Origin: Phorcus lineatus
Taxonomy: Eukaryota > Mollusca > Gastropoda > Trochida > Trochidae
Direction of reading: 5' to 3'
NCBI GenBank assembly: GCA_921293015.1
Contig: OV121082.1
Location: 52,596,971 to 52,660,970 of the forward strand
Length of the DNA stretch: 64,000 nucleotides
This document shows positions 10,101-59,120 of the stretch, piece by piece. A program made the translations under genes and the position numbers. Below the pieces are notes generated by a model. That model ran no database searches and was not told where the DNA came from. It was given only the letters and a program-made list of their open reading frames with translations. Numbering within the stretch: the stretch's first letter is position 1; each line of letters begins with the position of its first letter.

Positions 10101-13100
10101 GACCAAATCTCTATGCTCGATCTCCACACTGACCTACTAGTATCGATCTCCACACTGACCTACTAGTATCGATCTCCACACTGACCTACTAGTATCGATC
10201 TCCACACTTACCTACTAGTATCGATCTCCACACTGACCTACTAGTATCGATCTCCACACTTACCTACTAGTATCGATCTCCACACTGACCTACTAGTATC
10301 GATCTCCACACTGACCTACTAGTATCGATCTCCACACTGACCTACTAGTATCGATCTCCACACTGACCTACTAGTATCGATCTCCACACTTACCTACTAG
10401 TATCGATCTCCACACTGACCTACTAGTATCGATCTCCACACTGACCTACTAGTATCGATCTCCACACTGACCTACTAGTATCGATCTCCACACTGACCTA
10501 CTAGTATCGATCTCCACACTGACCTACTAGTATCGATCTCCACACTGACCTACTAGTATCGATCTCCACACTGACCTACTAGTATCGATCTCCACACTGA
10601 CCTACTAGTATCGATCTCCACACTGACCTACTAGTATCGATCTCCACACTTACCTACTAGTATCGATCTCCACACTGACCTACTAGTATCGATCTCCACA
10701 CTGACCTACTAGTATCGATCTCCACACTGACCTACTAGTATCGATCTCCACACTGACCTACTAGTATCGATCTCCACACTGACCTACTAGTATCGATCTC
10801 CACACTGACCTACTAGTATCGATCTCCACACTGACCTACTAGTATCGATCTCCACACTGACCTACTAGTATCGATCTCCACACTGACCTACTAGTATCGA
10901 TCTCCACACTGACCTACTAGTATCGATCTCCACACTGACCTACTAGTATCGATCTCCACACTGACCTACTAGTATCGATCTCCACACTGACCTACTAGTA
11001 TCGATCTCCACACTGACCTACTAGTATCGATCTCCACACTGACCTACTAGTATCGATCTCCACACTGACCTACTAGTATCGATCTCCACACTGACCTACT
11101 AGTATCGATCTCCACACTGACCTACTAGTATCGATCTCCACACTGACCTACTAGTATCGATCTCCACACTGACCTACTAGTATCGATCTCCACACTGACC
11201 TACTAGTATCGATCTCCACACTGACCTACTAGTATCGATCTCCACACTGACCTACTAGTATCGATCTCCACACTGACCTACTAGTATCGATCTCCACACT
11301 GACCTACTAGTATCGATCTCCACACTGACCTACTAGTATCGATCTCCACACTGACCTACTAGTATCGATCTCCACACTGACCTACTAGTATCGATCTCCA
11401 CACTGACCTACTAGTATCGATCTCCACACTGACCTACTAGTATCGATCTCCACACTGACCTACTAGTATCGATCTCCACACTGACCTACTAGTATCGATC
11501 TCCACACTGACCTACTAGTATCGATCTCCACACTGACCTACTAGTATCGATCTCCACACTGACCTACTAGTATCGATCTCCACACTGACCTACTAGTATC
11601 GATCTCCACACTGACCTACTAGTATCGATCTCCACACTGACCTACTAGTATCGATCTCCACACTGACCTACTAGTATCGATCTCCACACTGACCTACTAG
11701 TATCGATCTCCACACTGACCTACTAGTATCGATCTCCACACTGACCTACTAGTATCGATCTCGTTCTAACGAATAACCTCAAGATTGGCTGCTCATCAAA
11801 TGGCGAGAAGTTCATCTGAGAGTAGCACGGTCATGATAGTTTAAACATATTGTGTTCATGAAGAAAAGGCTGAGGAACAAGTTCTCCAACTTAGAATACC
11901 TTCTTCTTGGAATGTACATGGATGATTTACAATTTTTACAGATATGACAGAGCATGAACGGTCATGATACCTATTGTAGTAAAATCATTTAGAATGTCAT
12001 TTGTCCAGAAGGCGAGATCACACGCCCGATTGATATCATTATATTCATATAACATATCAAACACTATCGCCTCGTAATTGTCTTCATGTTTTTTTTTTTG
12101 GTTTTTTTTTCAGTTTCTAAAATTACGTTTGACTTATCAATTCACATCTTTGTCCAGTTTTCAACCCAACTCCCACCTGTAGACCATCACATTGCCAGTG
12201 TCCAACCTAATCAGTATTTAAATGATACTTTCTTTAACCCTTCAGAACTTCATGATAAAATAACACTATTCCAATAGTTTGCTACATGCGACGTTAACAA
12301 TTCACAGAGTATCTTTAAACACGAACTATAAATTCACATTCACTTTGCTTTATGTTTACCATTTAGAGTTTGTTTACTCAATTTGACGTCATCAACATTG
12401 AGGAGTTGACTCTGGCTGCCAACATGCCCCTGCAAGACTTGAACAGATTGCAGTGGCGGACAAAAGTGGACAACAAACCCCCTAGAACAGGTACGGAAAA
12501 TGTTCGTGCTTTGCTTAGTTATCATGGTGAAGTTAGAATGAAATTCCGTCAAAGCACAAAAAGTTCATGCTAGTAAATGGATGTACGATTTATGATATAA
12601 ATAGAGGATACTTAATTAAATTTAAGGAAGTTTAGTATTCTGATTATTACTAGATCTCAGCAGTCAAGCATGATTGCCGAAAGTGTACAGAACGAAACAT
12701 TTCCGCGACTTGGCCGCCATTGTGACGGCGGTGCCAACATTGTGACGTCATAACCACACAATATTATGACGTCATACGTGCAGCGGTATTACACTAGTTT
12801 AATATCGCCGTATAAATATTACACTGCAGTATCTTACACGGGCGGGTAATAATCATTTATATGATTAAACACAAAATGTATTATTTTCATTAACATTCAC
12901 TTGATAAAAGACACAAGTCAATGCATTTTGGAGCTTATTTTACTACGGTTTCAACGAATGATGTTACTGCAGTTCCAAATCACACCACGCTTCGACATTG
13001 GTTTTGTAGGGATTAATTAACTCTTTTTAGAATGTTCACATTGTTTGATATCTTATATAAAAGACAGCTCATGAACACCTATTTCGTAAAGTGTGTTGTT

Positions 13101-45500: not shown

Positions 45501-48500
45501 TAATCTGTTTGACAACGTCAATGTTATATCTGAGGTCAGTTTATATCATTTTGATTTGGTTTGGAACTTTTTAATCGCTTTCTAGATATATTAGGTGTGT
45601 GTATACTTATAAGCAAACAATAAATGACCCTATCATCGTCAACTGTCCAGCAAAAAGTGACCACGTACTGCAGACCTTTACTGAACCTTACACTAAACCT
45701 ATAATTCGAAGTCATCATGATCCAAAGCATTGGCATTCAAACTTAAAATTTTCTTAAGTGAATAAAGTTCATGACATTTTAGCATGAATCATCCCTCAAC
45801 AACACCCTCAGTGAAACAGAAATCACCCTACAGACATTGATGTGGGAACATGATGAAAGAGCTCTGAGAGATCATATGGAATTTACCAGAACTGGAAAAT
45901 CACCATTTCCTAATGTGAATTATGGTCTCAACGGAAGACGAATTACAGCCGCAATGCTTGAAGTAAGATATTTTCATCACATTTATGACATTATTAAAGC
46001 ATGTTTTCATGAACTAACTTAAATGTTTATATAAATTAAGTTTAACAATTTCATAACGTGTAGAGTCTCTTTCAGTGGTTGCCATTTTCCAAAAAAGAGA
46101 CAGGAGAAGCTGTCAATGGAACTCTGATGTATACTGGAATCACTGGAGAAATAATGAACAGACTGGCCATTATCTTTAATTTCAGGTAAATGACGTGAGC
46201 ATAAAGGTGCATCATCTAAAAGTATTTTTTCAACTTGTTTACATACTTCTATCCTTATCTTTTCCCTGAATTCATTATGGTTTGTTATGTCTACTCGCAA
46301 GTACCTAACTAACATTGATTTGTTTAACATGTCAATTGCAGTATTCAGTATGTGGAACCAGCAGACCAACAATGGGGCGAAGATATTAATTCCTCTTGGA
46401 CTGGAATCGTCGGCATGTTGCAACGAGAGGTCAGTTTCAAACTTCCATAATCTTTTAATAGTTTTAAATTTTGAAACAAACAAATTAATTGATAATTGAA
46501 TATGAAAAGCAATGTTTATTTGTGTGTGATCTATACATTCATTTTGGTTTGATGTGAAAATGACTACTTTGTTATCGGGAGATTATAAATATTTTCGGTC
46601 ATACTCAACTGTTTTGTGGTTCATGGGCTTGTCTTATTTCAGGAAGTCGATATGTGTGGTGTTCCTTATGCAGTGAATATAGATAGACAGAGAGTCATGA
46701 CCTATTCTTACCCGTTCCTTTACAAACATCAATCAGCTGTGTACAGGAAATCTGTCGACAATGGTCATTCGTGGACTGTACTGATTTCATGTTTCAAGTG
46801 GGAAGTTTACATGTGGGGATTGGTAACATTGTTCCTTGTTTGGATCCTGTTTAATGTGTTTGAGATTTTGAATCGTTTCTGGTTTGAAACGACATCCAGT
46901 TTGACATACACAGAAGTTGCAATGTTGACCTTTTCTGTTCCTCTTCATCAAGGTAAGTTAATGAGAAAGAAACTTAATCAAATCAATAGTAACGTTAATG
47001 AATTTTTCCAAAATGCACTTATAGTGAACGCCTGCAATTAGGTGGTGAGCCTTCGAAAGTATTTCACTATTATCACGGCTGGAAGCATTATGCAGAGCGC
47101 GACAATTTTTATGGCTATACAATCCTGCAGTTTGAAATAAAACCATGACCTTAGGAAATAGCTTTAAAAGAGGGATGATGAATCAAAGAAAACTGTACCA
47201 CTTTTGTGTAGTTGTAACAGTAAACATATGTCGACATGAGTGTTTAATCAATAAATCATTGTCAGATATAAACGTTACGAAGGAAATATTTTCAGGTGCT
47301 CATTCCATCCCATCGTCTGCTTCTTCCAAGATTCTACTGAGCTTCTGGTGGATCTTCTGTATTGTCCTCACGGGTGTGTACACTGGAAATCTTATTGCTC
47401 TACTCACAGTGTCCAGAGAATCTATTCCCTTCCGCACAATTGAGGAGCTAGCTGAGCAAAACACTCATCAAATTGGAACCACTTCAGGAGAATTCATTGA
47501 ACTGATTATTAAGGTAAATAGCCAAGTTTGAACCTCTGTTTATAGATCTGTATTTGTCGATATTTGAATGAATTCATTGGTAGTTACTAGCCTTTGTTCC
47601 AAAAAGTGTTGTCCCATAAACCCAAGTAAATTAAAATCAAATTAAGATCATGAATATTAGGAAGGTTACTTATTAGAAACAAATCCAAAAGGCTCTGGAA
47701 TAGTTTTTGTTTCAATTTCAATTGAATTGATTTGGTTAATAATAAGAAACATGTTCTATAGTTAATGAAGAAATGTTGTAATTTCCTTGTGATCTATATC
47801 ATGAATAGATTAACATGTACACATACAAGTAACAGTCAAAAATTTGACGATATACTTATATAAGCACACAAATGTTTTTGTTTATAGACCTCCAACACAT
47901 CAGTGTTTCAAAGTCTCTGGGATAAAGCTAAGTTAAGCAAAGTTCCAAGTTCGGTGACCACAGAAGAAGAGTGGCAGATACATATGGATCGGCTGAACAG
48001 TGGGCAATACATCTTACTCTTGGATGAAACTAAATCAGATATGATAATGAGGGAGAGCTGCGATATAGCCAAAATACCCGATGACTTTATGCCCATATAC
48101 TCAAGTTTCACATTTCCAAAAGATTCTCCTTTGGCATATCTTTTTGCAGATGAGTAAGTATGCTCTCAGTTACAATACTAGTGCTGATATTATTCGTGAT
48201 TTGGAAGATTAAACTTGTCATCGTCATCGATACAATCAGGATAGTCAATGACAAGGATTCATTCATTGATAAATTTAGTTTAGACTTAACTTGCTGGTAT
48301 AATTTTTCTCCTTTTCTATGGAGAACACTTTTTTAATTTCATGACTGAGGACGTATTGATAATATTCTTTTAAGGTTTTCAAACATTAGCAGTATCAAAG
48401 TTATCACTGTCTTCTCACTTCTGTACAACTTCTATATGACTTTGACATCCCCTTGCAGATTGATGTACATGACTGAGAATGGACTTATGTCAACCTGGTT

Positions 48501-53075: not shown

Positions 53076-56000
53076 ATGGGTCTAGAGCTGAACCTCTTCG
53101 AGAGTGAAATAGATCCCAGTTTGATATGCAGGATCTGCAAGAAGGTCTTCGTGAATCCTGTGTCGACGTCCTGTCATCATGTCTTTTGCCAAAGCTGTAT
53201 CAAAACGAGGCTGATATCCTCGAGCCCCAAGTTCTGTCCTGAGTGCTCAACACGACTTCAGAGCGAAACCTCCCAAGTGTCTGTTGAATTGAAGCTGAAG
53301 CTGCTCGAATTGCCCATCAAATGTAGTCATCAGTGTGGAGCTGTGTGTCCCTTGGCTGATTTACCTGATCACGTAGCTGATGTCTGTCCGTATGCTCCTG
53401 TTCCATGCCCTAACAAGGATATAGGCTGTAGAAAAACCGTGAAAAGACAGGATGTAGGCCTTCATGAAGAGGAATGTTACTTCCGGTATTTGCATTCCAT
53501 GAACGTTTGCTAGTTGCAGACATTCCGACCTTAATTGCATACATGTGTAACCTGATTATTCTTCCTCAATTGACAGGTATTCTATCGCTTGAAAACTGAA
53601 TCATTTCTAACTCGATAATGCACAAACTACTTCAAAGTAGAAGAAAATTATTTCTCTTAATATGAAATTTTCTTTCGAATGTTTATTAACGCATTTTCAT
53701 TCTTTGCAGTTATGTGAATTGTGAAGCCTGTGATTTCCATGTACAATATTGCGATCTCTTTACACATCAACACAAAACTCGGTGCCTGGAAAGGAAACTG
53801 CGTCAACAGGTTGCGCGAGCAGCTAAATCCATCAACATTGAAGTGCGACGTCACCACAGCAACGTCAAACGTCAACACATGCAAATTGAGAGATATCAAC
53901 GCGAAACACTTATGAAACAGCTGAGAAGTAAAGAGTCTAACAGAAAATACGAAAAAAGGGTCTCAGTTGGTTCCAAAGAGGATTTGAGCGATGACGTTTT
54001 TCCAGAGAATAGTTCCTTTATTGATTGCCAAATTTCCTCAGCTGAGGTCGACATACCGTCAGTTCAAACAAAAGCTCCTCATCCCTCTCACAGTGGTCAG
54101 ACTGTGGTGACGTGCAAGAACTGCAAGAAGGCATTCAGAGAAGCATCCAATCATGCCAAGGCTTGTGTTTACCATGTTGGGGTGAGTCGACGTTTGCTTT
54201 GAAATAGAATAAATCTTTTGATGGTTTTGAAGGATTTCACAAACATATGTTATAAAGAAATATATGCTTGTTTAAATTCTAATTTTATTCATATGATTCC
54301 AAATGAAGATAATGTTTTCCCTTGATTATCCTTACCTTGTTTTGATCATATATTTGAGATTACTCTTAAAAGTATTCATTTTCGTTTCATGCTTCGTTAC
54401 AGCCAGTAAGTATACAAACGTTTACAATACTTGTTGATATAACAAGTAATTCTATGTGCTAGCATAAAGTAAAAATAGCTTTGAAAATCTTTCTTTTTAT
54501 TGTCAAATTCTTAAGAACGAGTTAAAAATTAATGCTTTTAGTGCTTGAATATAAACTGTCTTTTAACATTTACATATTTATTCTTTCATTTTCTGCAGAT
54601 CGTAAGTATATGTCTGCACTGTGTGTTGTGTGTTAACTTGTTACCTCGATTTTTCAAGGAAAGATGTTTTCTTGTTTATGTGTAAAACAGTCTTAAAATC
54701 TTATTGTTTAGGTTGGCTTGAAAACCTTAATTCAGGTAATGGCATCCGGTTACGTACAAGAGTAATGCTATCAAATAACATATATGCAGCTATACATATT
54801 TCCTAGCATCACCTCAAATGAAAACATTGTCTCCATTATTCATTCGTGCCTATTTGATTTCCTTATTTTATTCAACATGATAAGAATCATGTGACAAGTA
54901 AAACCCTTTTTTCTTACTTGAAAGGTCGAGTTTGATGTGGACTTGCACATTGTAATCGTCGAAGGTTTTCTTGCACAATACTATATTCAAAGACTTCAGA
55001 CAATAGCAAGGTTAACAATATGATAAGTAGTTTGTAATTTACCAATTATTTTCTTACGTTTATCCTAATGTTTTGAGCGAAATATTTACTCAGGTTACCC
55101 AAATTTTATGAAAGATTTTTTTCTAAAATATGATTTTTCGATCACTTTCTAATGATATTATCACTCATGTGACCAAAATGTTATGAAAGAATTTTTTTTT
55201 AATATGAATTTTCGAAAAAAATTTCAAGATGATATGTTTTGTGCTAAGTTCATTAAATGGCAATATAATTATCAATATTACGATTTTGAAGTGTAATATG
55301 TTTCTTTTCTCTGCATAGATGAGAAAATTTTCGCACATTGCCCTTTAAGTATTTAATCTGAAAACGAGAAGTGGTCTAAAAACGCTTGATAAGAATGTGT
55401 GCTTTTATGGCTTTTAATGATGCGAACTTCACTTGCTAATATATGATACGTTTTTAACTTCTTAACACATATTTATGAGGTATCTCACAACATTAGAATT
55501 ATCATACATTATCAAATAAAGACAAAACGAGTTACTCTTGAATTATTGTTAATCTAAAAGAAGTTCCTTTCAACAATAATTCTCATGGTGAATATTGAAA
55601 AATGTCAAGTTTTGAGTGATGTATTATTAGAATTAAAAAACTAATATTTTTAGTATATTTATATATTTTTTGTTTCATGTTGATGGGACAGATTGATGTA
55701 AGTATTTGAATGAACTTGTTACTCAACTAGAGTCGACTAAAACTCTATGATGGTTGACCTGTAAAAAATCTTTACTTAAAATACATACTGTCACAGCTGA
55801 TGAATTATTCTAATGCGTAACAAGTACTTAAACAAATCTTCGTTACCCTCCTAAAAGACATTATAACTGTAAAGTCTTCTCCAAATAGTATTAAAGTATG
55901 TGACTTTGATAATAATAAGTTTGCGAACCTACACCTATGATGATGTTGTCTTATTTATCAAGTGTATTCTTTCTCTTTTTCATCTTCACATGGACAAACA

Positions 56001-57139
56001 GCTTTTTGTAAGTTACACGTTTTGTCATTTTTAGATATCTTAAGACCTTGCTTACTGTAAGTTGTAGAAGTCCATTTCGTATCTTTACAAATCAAGTGTT
56101 TTCGTGCTGTTATTAGTTCACAATAACCAGGATACAGTAAATAAATATCTAATATATAGTCAAAGAAGATCCTTTTAAATGGAATGTTATTCATGACAAA
56201 TATTTTTCAATCATTTGAAATGAGAGGAAGATTTAGTCGTTTAGAGTATGTTGCTGCCACTATAAAGAAAAATGTAGTCTAATCTATGAATATTCAGCTT
56301 CTTCTGCTCTCCATAGGTTTGACAATGAGTCTGTGTAGAAACGTTTTCATCACTTTAACGTCTAGAATGTTAATCGAAAAGTCCATTGAAGAATGTAAAT
56401 ATGAAAATCGTTACCTATCATTTTAACTGATGTTTTATTCTCTTTCATGCTGTCACCTTGGCATGCCAACAGGGGGTGAGTATTTTTTACATTTTCAAAA
56501 TATCACATCATGGAACGTATTTCGACATCTGATGTTTCAGTGGTTGAAATTATCTGTACTGTTTATATCATACATCTACATTAAATGAAGAAAATTAAGT
56601 AAGAAATTATCTACTGCAATAAAATACATTATAATCATGTGAGAGTTGTTTAATGAACATTAATCAATTTGAGAAAAGAGAAATGTCATAACTTTTTTTT
56701 CTTGTTTCATTTCCTGCGATTCATCATGCAGGGGGTAAGTGTTTTCCTTTACTTTATCACATACGTACGCCGTGATAACAATTATAATTACAGATACATA
56801 CAGAAGATAAAACAAATAACTTTCATCTCAAATTCATAATTAATTTGAAAATTAGAGAACAGATAATGTATTTGTATAGAAAAAACTGTGAGCGAATGGC
56901 ATGATCTTATTTAAATGAGGTTGTCATGATGTCCAAGTGTAATACACTACTGCTATCCAACATAACCATCTGCATATACATAGATACAAGACAGTAAGTA
57001 TTCATCTGACTTTGGTCTGTTGCAGACATGTTACGGTTGTGGACGGATGGACTACCAGCATGGGTGCCGCACTTCTCGTCACACACCAGGCGTGTCAGGA
57101 TCAACACGTAATGACAACGCAAAGTTGAAGACGAAGTAG
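53076..57139 (+). CDS. RING and TRAF-type zinc-finger protein (PDZRN3-like N-terminus), probable E3 ubiquitin ligase
   Basis: Long exons: 53076-53485 (coding part; acceptor at 53052), 53710-54181 and 57026-57139 (TAG), joining in phases 2 and 0. The N-terminus MGLELNLFESEIDPSLICRI resembles PDZRN3/LNX proteins. The RING (C3HC4) runs CRIC ... CHHVFCQSC ... CPEC over about residues 20-60, followed by TRAF-type zinc fingers (KCSHQCGAVC, CPYAPVPCPN, then YVNCEACDF) to about 165, and a basic coiled coil (about 175-220). The C-terminus has a metal-binding pattern split by introns: CKNC ... CVYHVG at the end of the second exon and CYGCG ... GCRTSRH in the last, like the C...YHxG...CC...GC...H order of CHORD-type domains. 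No PDZ domain is present. Between 54182 and 57025 lie several candidate 3- and 6-nt exons (listed separately); with five of them the protein would be 337 aa. Targets unknown. Confidence 0.82.
54403..56734 (+). other. Microexon ladder inside the RING-finger gene
   Basis: Five candidate exons, each between an AG acceptor and a strong GTRAGT donor, all multiples of three and all between phase-0 exons: 54403-54405 (cca), 54599-54601 (atc), 55692-55697 (attgat), 56473-56475 (ggg) and 56732-56734 (ggg). Four have a clear pyrimidine-rich lead with a 'tttcat' word upstream, and donors are gtaagtat, gtgagtat or gtaagtgt. Together they would insert P-I-I-D-G-G between CVYHVG and TCYGCG, a length that suits the metal-binding loop. 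A 24-nt candidate (54712-54735, VGLKTLIQ) is weaker. Alternatively these could be recursive-splice sites or chance. Confidence 0.45.
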
Positions 57140-57161
57140 TGTGCAAGTCATTGAGAGCGAT

Positions 57162-57167
57162 AATAAA
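57162..57167 (+). terminator. Polyadenylation signal AATAAA for the RING-finger gene
   Basis: AATAAA, 22 nt after the TAG at 57137-57139, in the same short-UTR arrangement as receptor gene 1 and the VWC genes. Confidence 0.6.
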
Positions 57168-59120
57168 TATTTGGAAATACATTCCAGGAATGTCCTCTAT
57201 GATTTGATAGTTGAAGAAAAGATATGCTAAGATTATGGATAAATACAGATTTTACTTGTTTGCAGTTGCAGTCATTACGAGCCGATTACTTGTGTTAATG
57301 ATAGACATAGAGAATGTTGGCAGAAGGAAGGTTTGTTTTAATCATAAGATGCTAAGATGTAAAGAGCACTGCAGATCTATACCATTTCATGAGAGTCTTG
57401 CACTAAAGTTTAGTATGAGCACCATTTAGCATTGTCCTTTAGCATTTAGAGTGAGTGAGTGAGTTGTTGTTTAACGCCGCTTGGGCAATATTACAGCCAT
57501 TAGCGGCGTGCAGCATTTAGATATACATCTGCTTCCAGTGTGAACAAAAGCAAGAGTTCATATTTGTATATTTTATAGACAAAGGCTTATCTACTTATTC
57601 ATAAGAACCTATAACATACATGTAAATCTATTTAAATACCTTGAAAAAACCCATCTTACCTTATGCATATTCTTGTGTTGTTTATGAATTTATTTTAACA
57701 TTTATGCAATCATTAGAAATGATTTTTTTACATCTATGTTGCTCATCTTAAAGATGAAAGACTGTGATAAAATCTGATAAGATACTACATCTCAAAAAAT
57801 CTATTCATTCCCAAATGGCAAATACAGGACTTCAAGGGAACACCATTTATAACTCCTGCAATGGGCGCCCACTTTTTTCTGTCATTAGAACTTTTAGGCA
57901 CTATCAACTCCAAACATGTGCTTATTTATTTTGTTGAAATTGTGTTTTAGTTATTGACCAATACCGAGGGCGATGAATTGACGTTTACTTTTTTTTCACA
58001 GAATTAAACTGATTAGCATTCAAATGAATATTTTCAAAACAGTCTGTACTATTTAGTGAGATAACTTAATGCAATGTAGCACATGTTCTTTTAGATAGAA
58101 AGGTACATCATGAAATGTAAAACAAATTTACCAATTGCAAGGCAATCTTGTTGAATGTATAAAGGGAGTCTTTAAACGAACGTACCAAGTTATGCCTAAC
58201 TCAAATTAGACTGAAGGGTGTTCATACTTAAATGGTCGTATGCAGTTTTCGCTTGATAAGTGGTTATTTCATCTATGATTACCGATACTCGGTTTGAGAA
58301 ATAAGATGTTGACCTTCATTTGGGAAAATTTTAAGGATTCTTTTTATGTGCTGCAGCGCCTTTTACAAAACAAGGAGTGTCACTGTTGTCAATGACAATG
58401 AAACCAGATCATAGAAGAATGTGCTTTCTTCATTCTTTGAGTTTTCACTATGTGCATGTTTGTGCTATGCAAATGGATATTTTGACCTGAATAAAATATA
58501 TACAACAATTTTCACCAGACCTTGAAATAAGAGTAATTCTCAGTCCATATAGCTGCACTTTAAAACGATGAACGTAATATATTGATAATAGTAGATCTAT
58601 ATGTTCTTTATCAAAACAACAAATCAATATTGCGACAACACTTTCCCCTTCAACTGCTTTTATGTCGATAAAGGTCATCATTGCACAATTCGGTGAAATA
58701 AACAGTGGCTTTATTTTTAAACTCTATATTAACGCATAGTGCATGCTCGTCTCCATAATCACGTGTTTCCATTATCGTGGGACGCTCTGGAGATAATGGG
58801 CTCCCCCACGGACAAATAGCAACAATTAAGACTGTCATATTACCCGGTGTCACTTGAGTGGCTTTATTATTTACATTCTATTTAACATGTCTGTGATATA
58901 CCAGTACAACGCTGGAGCTGGGTATCAAAGATTTTTTTACATTGTGACGACTGACAATGGTTGTACCTTCTAATGAGGACAATTTTACATATTTATCGAT
59001 TTCTTGATTTGAATATTGAATATATGATTTGAATATAACGTTTCTTCTAGATGAATTAACTCGTCAGAGTATTTCTCGTATGTGTAATCTACATTCTGGA
59101 TTGTCAGTGTGAAGTAGGAC
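57168..59120. other. Intergenic, AT-rich
   Basis: Apart from the short repeat at 57450-57511, I see no gene. ORFs at 57211, 58448 and 58650 lack motifs and splice context. Confidence 0.5.
57450..57511 (+). repeat. Gastropod-type dispersed repeat fragment
   Basis: 'gagtgagtgagttgttgttt' leads into 'aacgccgcttgggcaatatt' and 'agccattagcggcg'. I recall close relatives of this GTGAGTGAGT...ACGCCGC...GCAATATT...GGCG block as very frequent in abalone and other gastropod DNA. It carries inverted GCCGC/GCGGC words. The family name is not known to me. Confidence 0.55.

Follow-up and report, generated by a model that had tools for sequence, protein, structure and literature searches.

Six successive microexons of 3 or 6 nucleotides probably encode a conserved loop of a molluscan RING/TRAF-type protein

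Exons of only a few nucleotides are recognised by the splicing machinery with great difficulty, and exon definition should fail at 3 nt. In tapeworms, micro-exon genes (MEGs) have been defined as genes with at least seven exons, at least half of which are micro-exons shorter than 70 nt, with a run of at least four (PMC7653826). In plants, a rice transcript carries two adjacent tiny exons of 5 and 12 nt (PMC4674806, PMC8831610), and the stepwise removal of both introns was proposed for a 1-nt exon of Arabidopsis (PMC4674806). Here we describe a gene of the trochid snail Phorcus lineatus, found in a stretch of 64,000 nt (assembly GCA_921293015.1, contig OV121082.1, forward-strand positions 52,596,971 to 52,660,970; hereafter the window), in which a ladder of six microexons of 3 or 6 nt lies between two ordinary coding exons. 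The full-length mRNA, which specifies a molluscan RING/TRAF-type protein, very probably contains all six as true exons, and they would encode one conserved loop of that protein. A literature search, with limited coverage of subscription journals, found no comparable run of 3-6 nt exons.

The sites were found by scanning both strands of the window for AG-N3/6/9-GTRAG and by reading the region 53500-57700. All six lie on the + strand. Microexon 1 (54403-54405, AG-CCA-GTAAGT) encodes P, which is present in 5/5 complete homologues (see below), and microexon 2 (54599-54601, AG-ATC-GTAAGT) encodes I. They are followed by two microexons of 6 nt, microexon 3 (55692-55697, AG-ATTGAT-GTAAGT) encoding ID, aligned with VP, IE or VK of the complete homologues, and microexon 4 (56002-56007, AG-CTTTTT-GTAAGT) encoding LF, aligned with LF or VF. 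Microexons 5 (56473-56475, AG-GGG-GTGAGT) and 6 (56732-56734, AG-GGG-GTAAGT) each encode a G that is invariant in all five. The ladder sizes are 3, 3, 6, 6, 3 and 3 nt, all in phase 0, and the joined 24 nt, CCAATCATTGATCTTTTTGGGGGG, are translated as PIIDLFGG. Seven introns of 193 to 1,090 nt separate the ladder exons, the whole stretch 54182-57025 measuring 2,844 nt, and the six acceptors score 0.86-1.28.

An earlier, sequence-only reading of this DNA had named five of these sites (CCA, ATC, ATTGAT, GGG and GGG) between two phase-0 exons, one ending at 54181 and the other beginning at 57026. Our scan recovered all five on the same strand and with the pattern described, together with both flanking exons. 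The sixth site, CTTTTT, had been missed, and the peptide PIIDGG is accordingly corrected to PIIDLFGG. All six sites, including CTTTTT, stood on the mechanical scan list before any homologue was retrieved; as CTTTTT was listed before the first homologue was known, it was not picked to fit. The profile query used for the homologue search contained PIIDGG in one of its four sequences, and since the complete homologues are two residues longer than this peptide, LF was not introduced by the query.

Coding exon 1 (53076..53485, +) begins with the ATG and encodes a RING finger followed by a TRAF-type zinc finger, the order of RING/TRAF-type proteins; in a Pfam search, it matched zf-TRAF (E=2e-10) and zf-C3HC4 (E=2.4e-8), both above cut-off. 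Its donor GTATTT follows the cg of a split Arg codon, the joint with exon 2 (cg-t) keeps the frame, and exon 1 can be aligned to the homologues. Coding exon 2 (53710..54181, +) encodes a helical stretch and the first half of a CHORD-like domain, and ends with ..CKNCKKAFREASNHAKACVYHVG in phase 0, followed by the donor GTGAGT. The last coding exon (57026..57139, +) begins in phase 0 with TCYGCGRMDYQHGCRTSRH.. and encodes the second half of the CHORD-like domain and the stop codon; it is homologous to the TC..CG..DY..GC....H of P0006, P0007, P0010, P0011, P0013 and P0017. Counting coding exons only, the gene model has nine exons, three ordinary and six micro. Six micro-exons out of nine, in a run of six, place the gene within the structural definition of a MEG given above.

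A profile search starting from the window protein and three first-round matches returned 22 proteins, which are cluster representatives at 90% identity. Five of the 22 contain the complete domain, in which the residues that separate the G of WHxG from the TC of TCxxCG are PIVPLFGG (P0006), PMIEVFGG (P0007 and P0013) or PIVKVFGG (P0010 and P0011). Their consensus in this interval is P-[IM]-[IV]-x-[LV]-F-G-G, with P, F, G and G invariant; P0010 and P0011 are 98.5% identical, which leaves at most four independent complete sequences. The ladder spells the residues of these proteins, which strengthens the microexon interpretation put forward in the sequence-only reading. The window protein, read with the ladder, and all five complete homologues share the Cys/His spacing 2-13-2-11-2-8-4. 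The fourth spacing, from the presumed ligand His to the next Cys, is 11 with the ladder, 9 without LF and 3 when all microexons are skipped, the last being the value of the Nucella lapillus model P0017. By this comparison, PIIDLFGG is a loop of constant length between the presumed ligand His and the next Cys pair of the CHORD-like domain. The complete homologues are constant at 11 residues from His to Cys, which favours routine inclusion of the microexons over the length variation considered earlier. Among the remaining matches, P0019, P0020 and P0021 miss the domain and P0022 is a different protein. In the own genome, the window protein matched this locus only (E <= 0.001). A second protein search restricted to the domain gave no match, and no relative turned up in viral_contigs or genome_contigs.

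To see how often such sites arise by chance, we counted 34,594 AGN3GTRAGT and 26,900 AGN6GTRAGT on the forward strand of the own assembly (957,807,699 bases in 74 contigs). From these counts, 0.10 + 0.08 = 0.18 sites are expected in 2,844 nt, and seven are present (5 + 2, including an ACA site discussed below). The Poisson probability is about 1.1e-9 for exactly seven sites and about 4.3e-8 for exactly six; across the roughly 670,000 windows of 2,844 nt on both strands, six such sites are expected about 0.03 times. For AGNNNGTRAG, the whole window holds 19 sites on both strands against 9.9 expected, a number reached in 2/100 shuffles and to which a tandem repeat contributes. The site counts by themselves are suggestive, and it is the match to the homologous peptide that decides.

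This match was examined by parsing the intron. The parse allowed exons of 1-24 nt and introns of at least 50 nt, required an acceptor and a donor above a modest score, and had as its target P-[IM]-[IV]-x-[LVIM]-F-G-G, a profile drawn from the homologues. Only a single chain drawn from the 12 candidate exons of the intron spelled the loop, and this was the six-microexon ladder. As controls, 1000 dinucleotide shuffles of this intron and 166 further pieces of the window, each of 2,844 nt, were parsed under the same rules. None gave a full parse, the best result being 3 of the 24 nt among the shuffles and 5 nt among the pieces. When the site criteria were relaxed, there were again none in 300 shuffles and 84 pieces, and the real intron still gave one. 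An aligner may report a series of microexons in place of a simple exon (PMC10166558), and for this reason an ordinary exon was considered as the source of the loop. It was ruled out, as neither strand of the window contains a contiguous coding source. An origin of the ladder sites in tandem repeats was rejected too, with only four weak two-copy repeats found, one of which (D4) pairs the CCA and ACA sites.

The ACA site (56991-56993) was considered as a further rung and rejected. Its acceptor scores 0.07, compared to 0.86-1.28 for the six, the next acceptor is only 32 nt away, and it would add a T where the five complete homologues have a single one. We conclude that it is probably not part of the ladder. 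The surrounding sequence near the last acceptor (56989-57004, AGACAGTAAGTATTCA) resembles the microexon 1 site (54401-54416, AGCCAGTAAGTATACA; 88% over 16 nt), and ACA is the same codon as the first of the last exon. The site is possibly a dead rung.

Nine of the 22 matches leave the conserved frame right after G with a V (P0003, P0004, P0005, P0008, P0012 from Pinctada, P0014, P0015 from Littorina, P0016 from Mactra and P0018), seven of them with V-S, as expected when a GTNAGT donor is read through. Two exit after GP with G-P-V-S-I (P0001, Haliotis rufescens isoform X1; P0009, Saccostrea) and one after GPI with G-P-I-V-S-I-C (P0002, H. rubra isoform X2). The P-I-V-S-I-C of H. rubra matches the reading of CCA and ATC followed by GTAAGTATATGT of the window. 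These 12 ends would represent introns that were read through. Bivalves and gastropods alike show apparent introns at these two positions, after G and after P, which suggests that the ladder is older than the split between these groups. None of the eight NCBI-named models (P0001, P0002, P0009, P0012, P0015, P0016, P0017 and P0021) has a complete C-terminal domain, and their annotation looks incomplete.

The same ends could be taken to mean that the ladder doubles as a switch, with incomplete splicing or internal polyadenylation yielding a deliberate short protein that lacks the C-terminal domain. This is compatible with the six being true exons, and 12/22 matches, including the two Haliotis isoform models, appear to end in a ladder intron after G, GP or GPI. 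These ends may, however, be failures of gene models, or genomic contigs instead of transcripts, as six of the 12 are NCBI-named annotation and six are contigs of uncertain kind, and we regard a deliberate switch as rather unlikely.

A second alternative is that the microexons are optional cassettes, as in the flatworm MEGs, so that different combinations give loops of varying length. Each of the six has a length divisible by three and lies in phase 0, and any subset would stay in frame; the Nucella lapillus model (P0017), in which G is joined directly to TCYSCGR, skips the loop altogether, and flatworm MEGs are described as producing variants via exon skipping (PMC4350168, PMC7653826). On the other hand, the loop has the same length in the five complete homologues, with P, F, G and G invariant, and full skipping would cut the distance from His to Cys from 11 to 3 residues. 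Furthermore, none of the 22 matches shows a partly skipped loop that continues into TC, although minor isoforms could be hidden among cluster representatives. Optional use of the microexons therefore appears improbable.

The sequence-only reading had also raised recursive splicing, in which the sites would be ratchet points that assist in clearing a single long intron without contributing any residues to the mRNA. Acceptor and donor are nearly adjacent here and recur along the intron, as this would predict. Ratchet points, however, join acceptor to donor directly (PMC8605326), with GT right after AG and nothing retained, whereas here 3 or 6 coding nt lie in between, in frame, and spell the conserved loop. 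Moreover, the entire stretch has just 2,844 nt. The classical zero-nucleotide form is thus very hard to reconcile with the locus, and a stepwise order of splicing is still likely. That the sites are chance pseudo-splice sites of an AT-rich intron is scarcely credible: single sites of the 3-nt form occur frequently, at about 36 per Mb on each strand, but neither the shuffles nor the other pieces spelled the conserved loop, and homologues played no part in choosing the sites.

With only 3-6 nt between them, an acceptor and a donor can hardly be occupied simultaneously by the factors that recognise 3′ and 5′ splice sites, so the rungs are probably joined in succession. Simultaneous binding was also argued against for the 1-nt exon of Arabidopsis (PMC4674806). 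In such a scheme, exon 2 would first be spliced to CCA, the GTAAGT that follows CCA would then serve as the donor for reaching ATC, and the same process would continue rung by rung up to 57026. Where a rung fails, the intron would be read as V-S-.. up to an early stop, and the protein produced would keep its RING and TRAF fingers and lack the C-terminal domain. Models that end after GP or GPI resemble the intermediates expected from stepwise joining, and may merely mark where annotation stopped. We somewhat favour a stepwise 5′-to-3′ order. More tentatively, and with doubt, the observations can be combined into an obligatory six-exon chain that predates the bivalve/gastropod split, runs strictly 5′-to-3′, shares the hexamer TTTCAT and acts as a checkpoint, an incomplete step giving the short RING/TRAF protein.

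The sequence itself shows where the sites lie and that they are in frame, that the parse is unique, that it matches the complete homologues and that it agrees with gene-model ends in other molluscs; inclusion in the mRNA and the mechanism we infer. Several points weigh against the six microexons or against this order of joining. The GTRAGT at all donors offers no independent support, because the sites were searched by that very pattern. All five complete homologues stem from short 'lgn' contigs (about 1.6 kb at most), which are presumably mRNA. In Haliotis and Saccostrea, the P could be fused to the preceding exon rather than form a 3-nt exon. None of the eight residues is present in the Nucella lapillus model, which would amount to skipping if this model is based on RNA. 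Concerning the order, the second intron around a 9-nt exon of a potato gene is removed first (cited in PMC4674806), and in mammals a donor close to a newly formed junction is subject to repression by the exon junction complex (PMC6224609).

A TTTCAT hexamer precedes each of the six microexons on the + strand, at 54385..54390 (with its A 14 nt before microexon 1), 54584..54589, 55673..55678, 55978..55983, 56443..56448 and 56705..56710, respectively. Its A lies 11-26 nt upstream of the exon in all six cases, and the intron contains eight TTTCAT in total. The motif is also found at the acceptor of the ordinary exon 2 and is absent from that of the last exon. The control set consisted of 60 myosin and kinesin loci from this genome, which gave 29 distinct acceptor candidates scoring > 0.85, some of them from tandem paralogues. 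TTTCAT was present within 50 nt in 4/29 of these and at 10-30 nt in 1/29 (Fisher p = 4e-6 for the latter); as the motif was chosen after inspecting all 5- and 6-mers, the corrected figure is nearer 0.02. With controls selected at > 0.85, the comparison of acceptor scores merely indicates that the six are not weak. TTTCAT is possibly a branch point or a regulatory or binding site, and we treat it as a lead only. As a branch point it would fit the consensus yUnAy.

The domain completed by the ladder has eight Cys/His in the order C,C,C,H,C,C,C,H of CHORD, both in the window and in 5/5 complete homologues. The CHORD ligands of RAR1 are C159, C164, C178, H181, C196, C197, C213 and H218 (PMC2935968), from which we computed a spacing of 4-13-2-14-0-15-4 for its CHORDII. 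Compared to the CHORD proteins RAR1, CHORDC1 and REXO1/Rex3 (PMC2935968, PMC12129344), the snail domain has the same ligand order as RAR1 and equal spacings of 13, 2 and 4, whereas four of the seven spacings differ: C-x2-C takes the place of C-C, and the other three are shorter. The invariant loop-tip His188 of RAR1 is absent too, as neither PIIDLFGG nor the homologous loops contain a His. The ladder-encoded stretch would correspond to RAR1 182-195, which holds Hsp90-contacting residues (PMC2935968). The gathering score of Pfam PF04968 (24.6 bits) was not reached by the domain of the window or of P0007 (15.0 bits each; E=0.039 and E=0.04, respectively), and the family was listed neither for the P0010 domain nor for the window domain without the loop. 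In sequence searches of the PDB, RAR1 (2xcm, E=0.0034) and CHORDC1 (2yrt, E=0.25) were both outranked by C2H2 zinc fingers. AlphaFold2 gave the C-terminal domain block a pLDDT of 34-56 for P0010 (21 sequences) and 33-43 for P0007 (5 sequences). A search of the own genome with Pfam CHORD yielded five matches, three over cut-off, all on C9; none lay at this locus, where an exon-by-exon search would miss a split domain. On these comparisons, the C-terminal domain is called CHORD-like and is not assigned to CHORD. It may bind metal, the His before the loop being a presumed ligand.

Elsewhere in the window, positions 10117-11000 hold a 26-bp tandem array of 34 copies with 99% matches that runs to the edge of the scanned stretch. 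A repeated AG-TAG-GTAAGT on the minus strand stems from this array, and repeats can generate such sites. The open reading frame at 47136-47528 matched the ligand-gated ion channel family PF00060 (E=4e-13), and Pfam gave no match for four neighbouring reading frames. On the 3′ side of the stop-containing exon of the RING/TRAF-type gene lies GTGAGTGAGT (57450-57463); the sequence right after it resembles a dispersed repeat of abalone and related snails.

A single 3-nt exon is already a curiosity, and here six successive ones of 3 or 6 nt would complete one conserved loop. The ladder provides a naturally occurring case in which to ask whether the spliceosome can advance along splice sites codon by codon, in which order and how faithfully. 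It also illustrates, through the eight NCBI-named models, how gene models fail. For evolution, it raises the question of how seven introns in and beside 24 coding bases arose and persisted.

With the MEGs of schistosomes and tapeworms, the snail gene has in common a run of consecutive symmetrical microexons. The flatworm genes are described as giving variants by exon skipping and as tied to the host-parasite interface (PMC4350168, PMC7653826), whereas the snail microexons, of only 3 or 6 nt each, encode part of a RING/TRAF protein, namely a conserved loop whose length is constant. The single-nucleotide exons of plant APC11 and VPS55 (PMC4674806, PMC8831610) are likewise conserved, below the size for exon definition and missed by annotation; stepwise splicing has been proposed for them as well, and the VPS55 donor is GTRAGT as in the snail. 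These plant genes are described with one such exon each, in contrast to six consecutive ones in the ladder. Human RPS24 has three neighbouring microexons of 3, 18 and 22 bp between constitutive exons (PMC11162997), which are alternatively spliced by tissue, whereas the snail six jointly complete one conserved loop. Recursive splicing through RS-exons and ratchet points (PMC6224609) similarly depends on a donor that is usable beside the junction of the first splice. In the snail gene, unlike in recursive splicing, the nucleotides between AG and GT would remain in the mRNA as codons.

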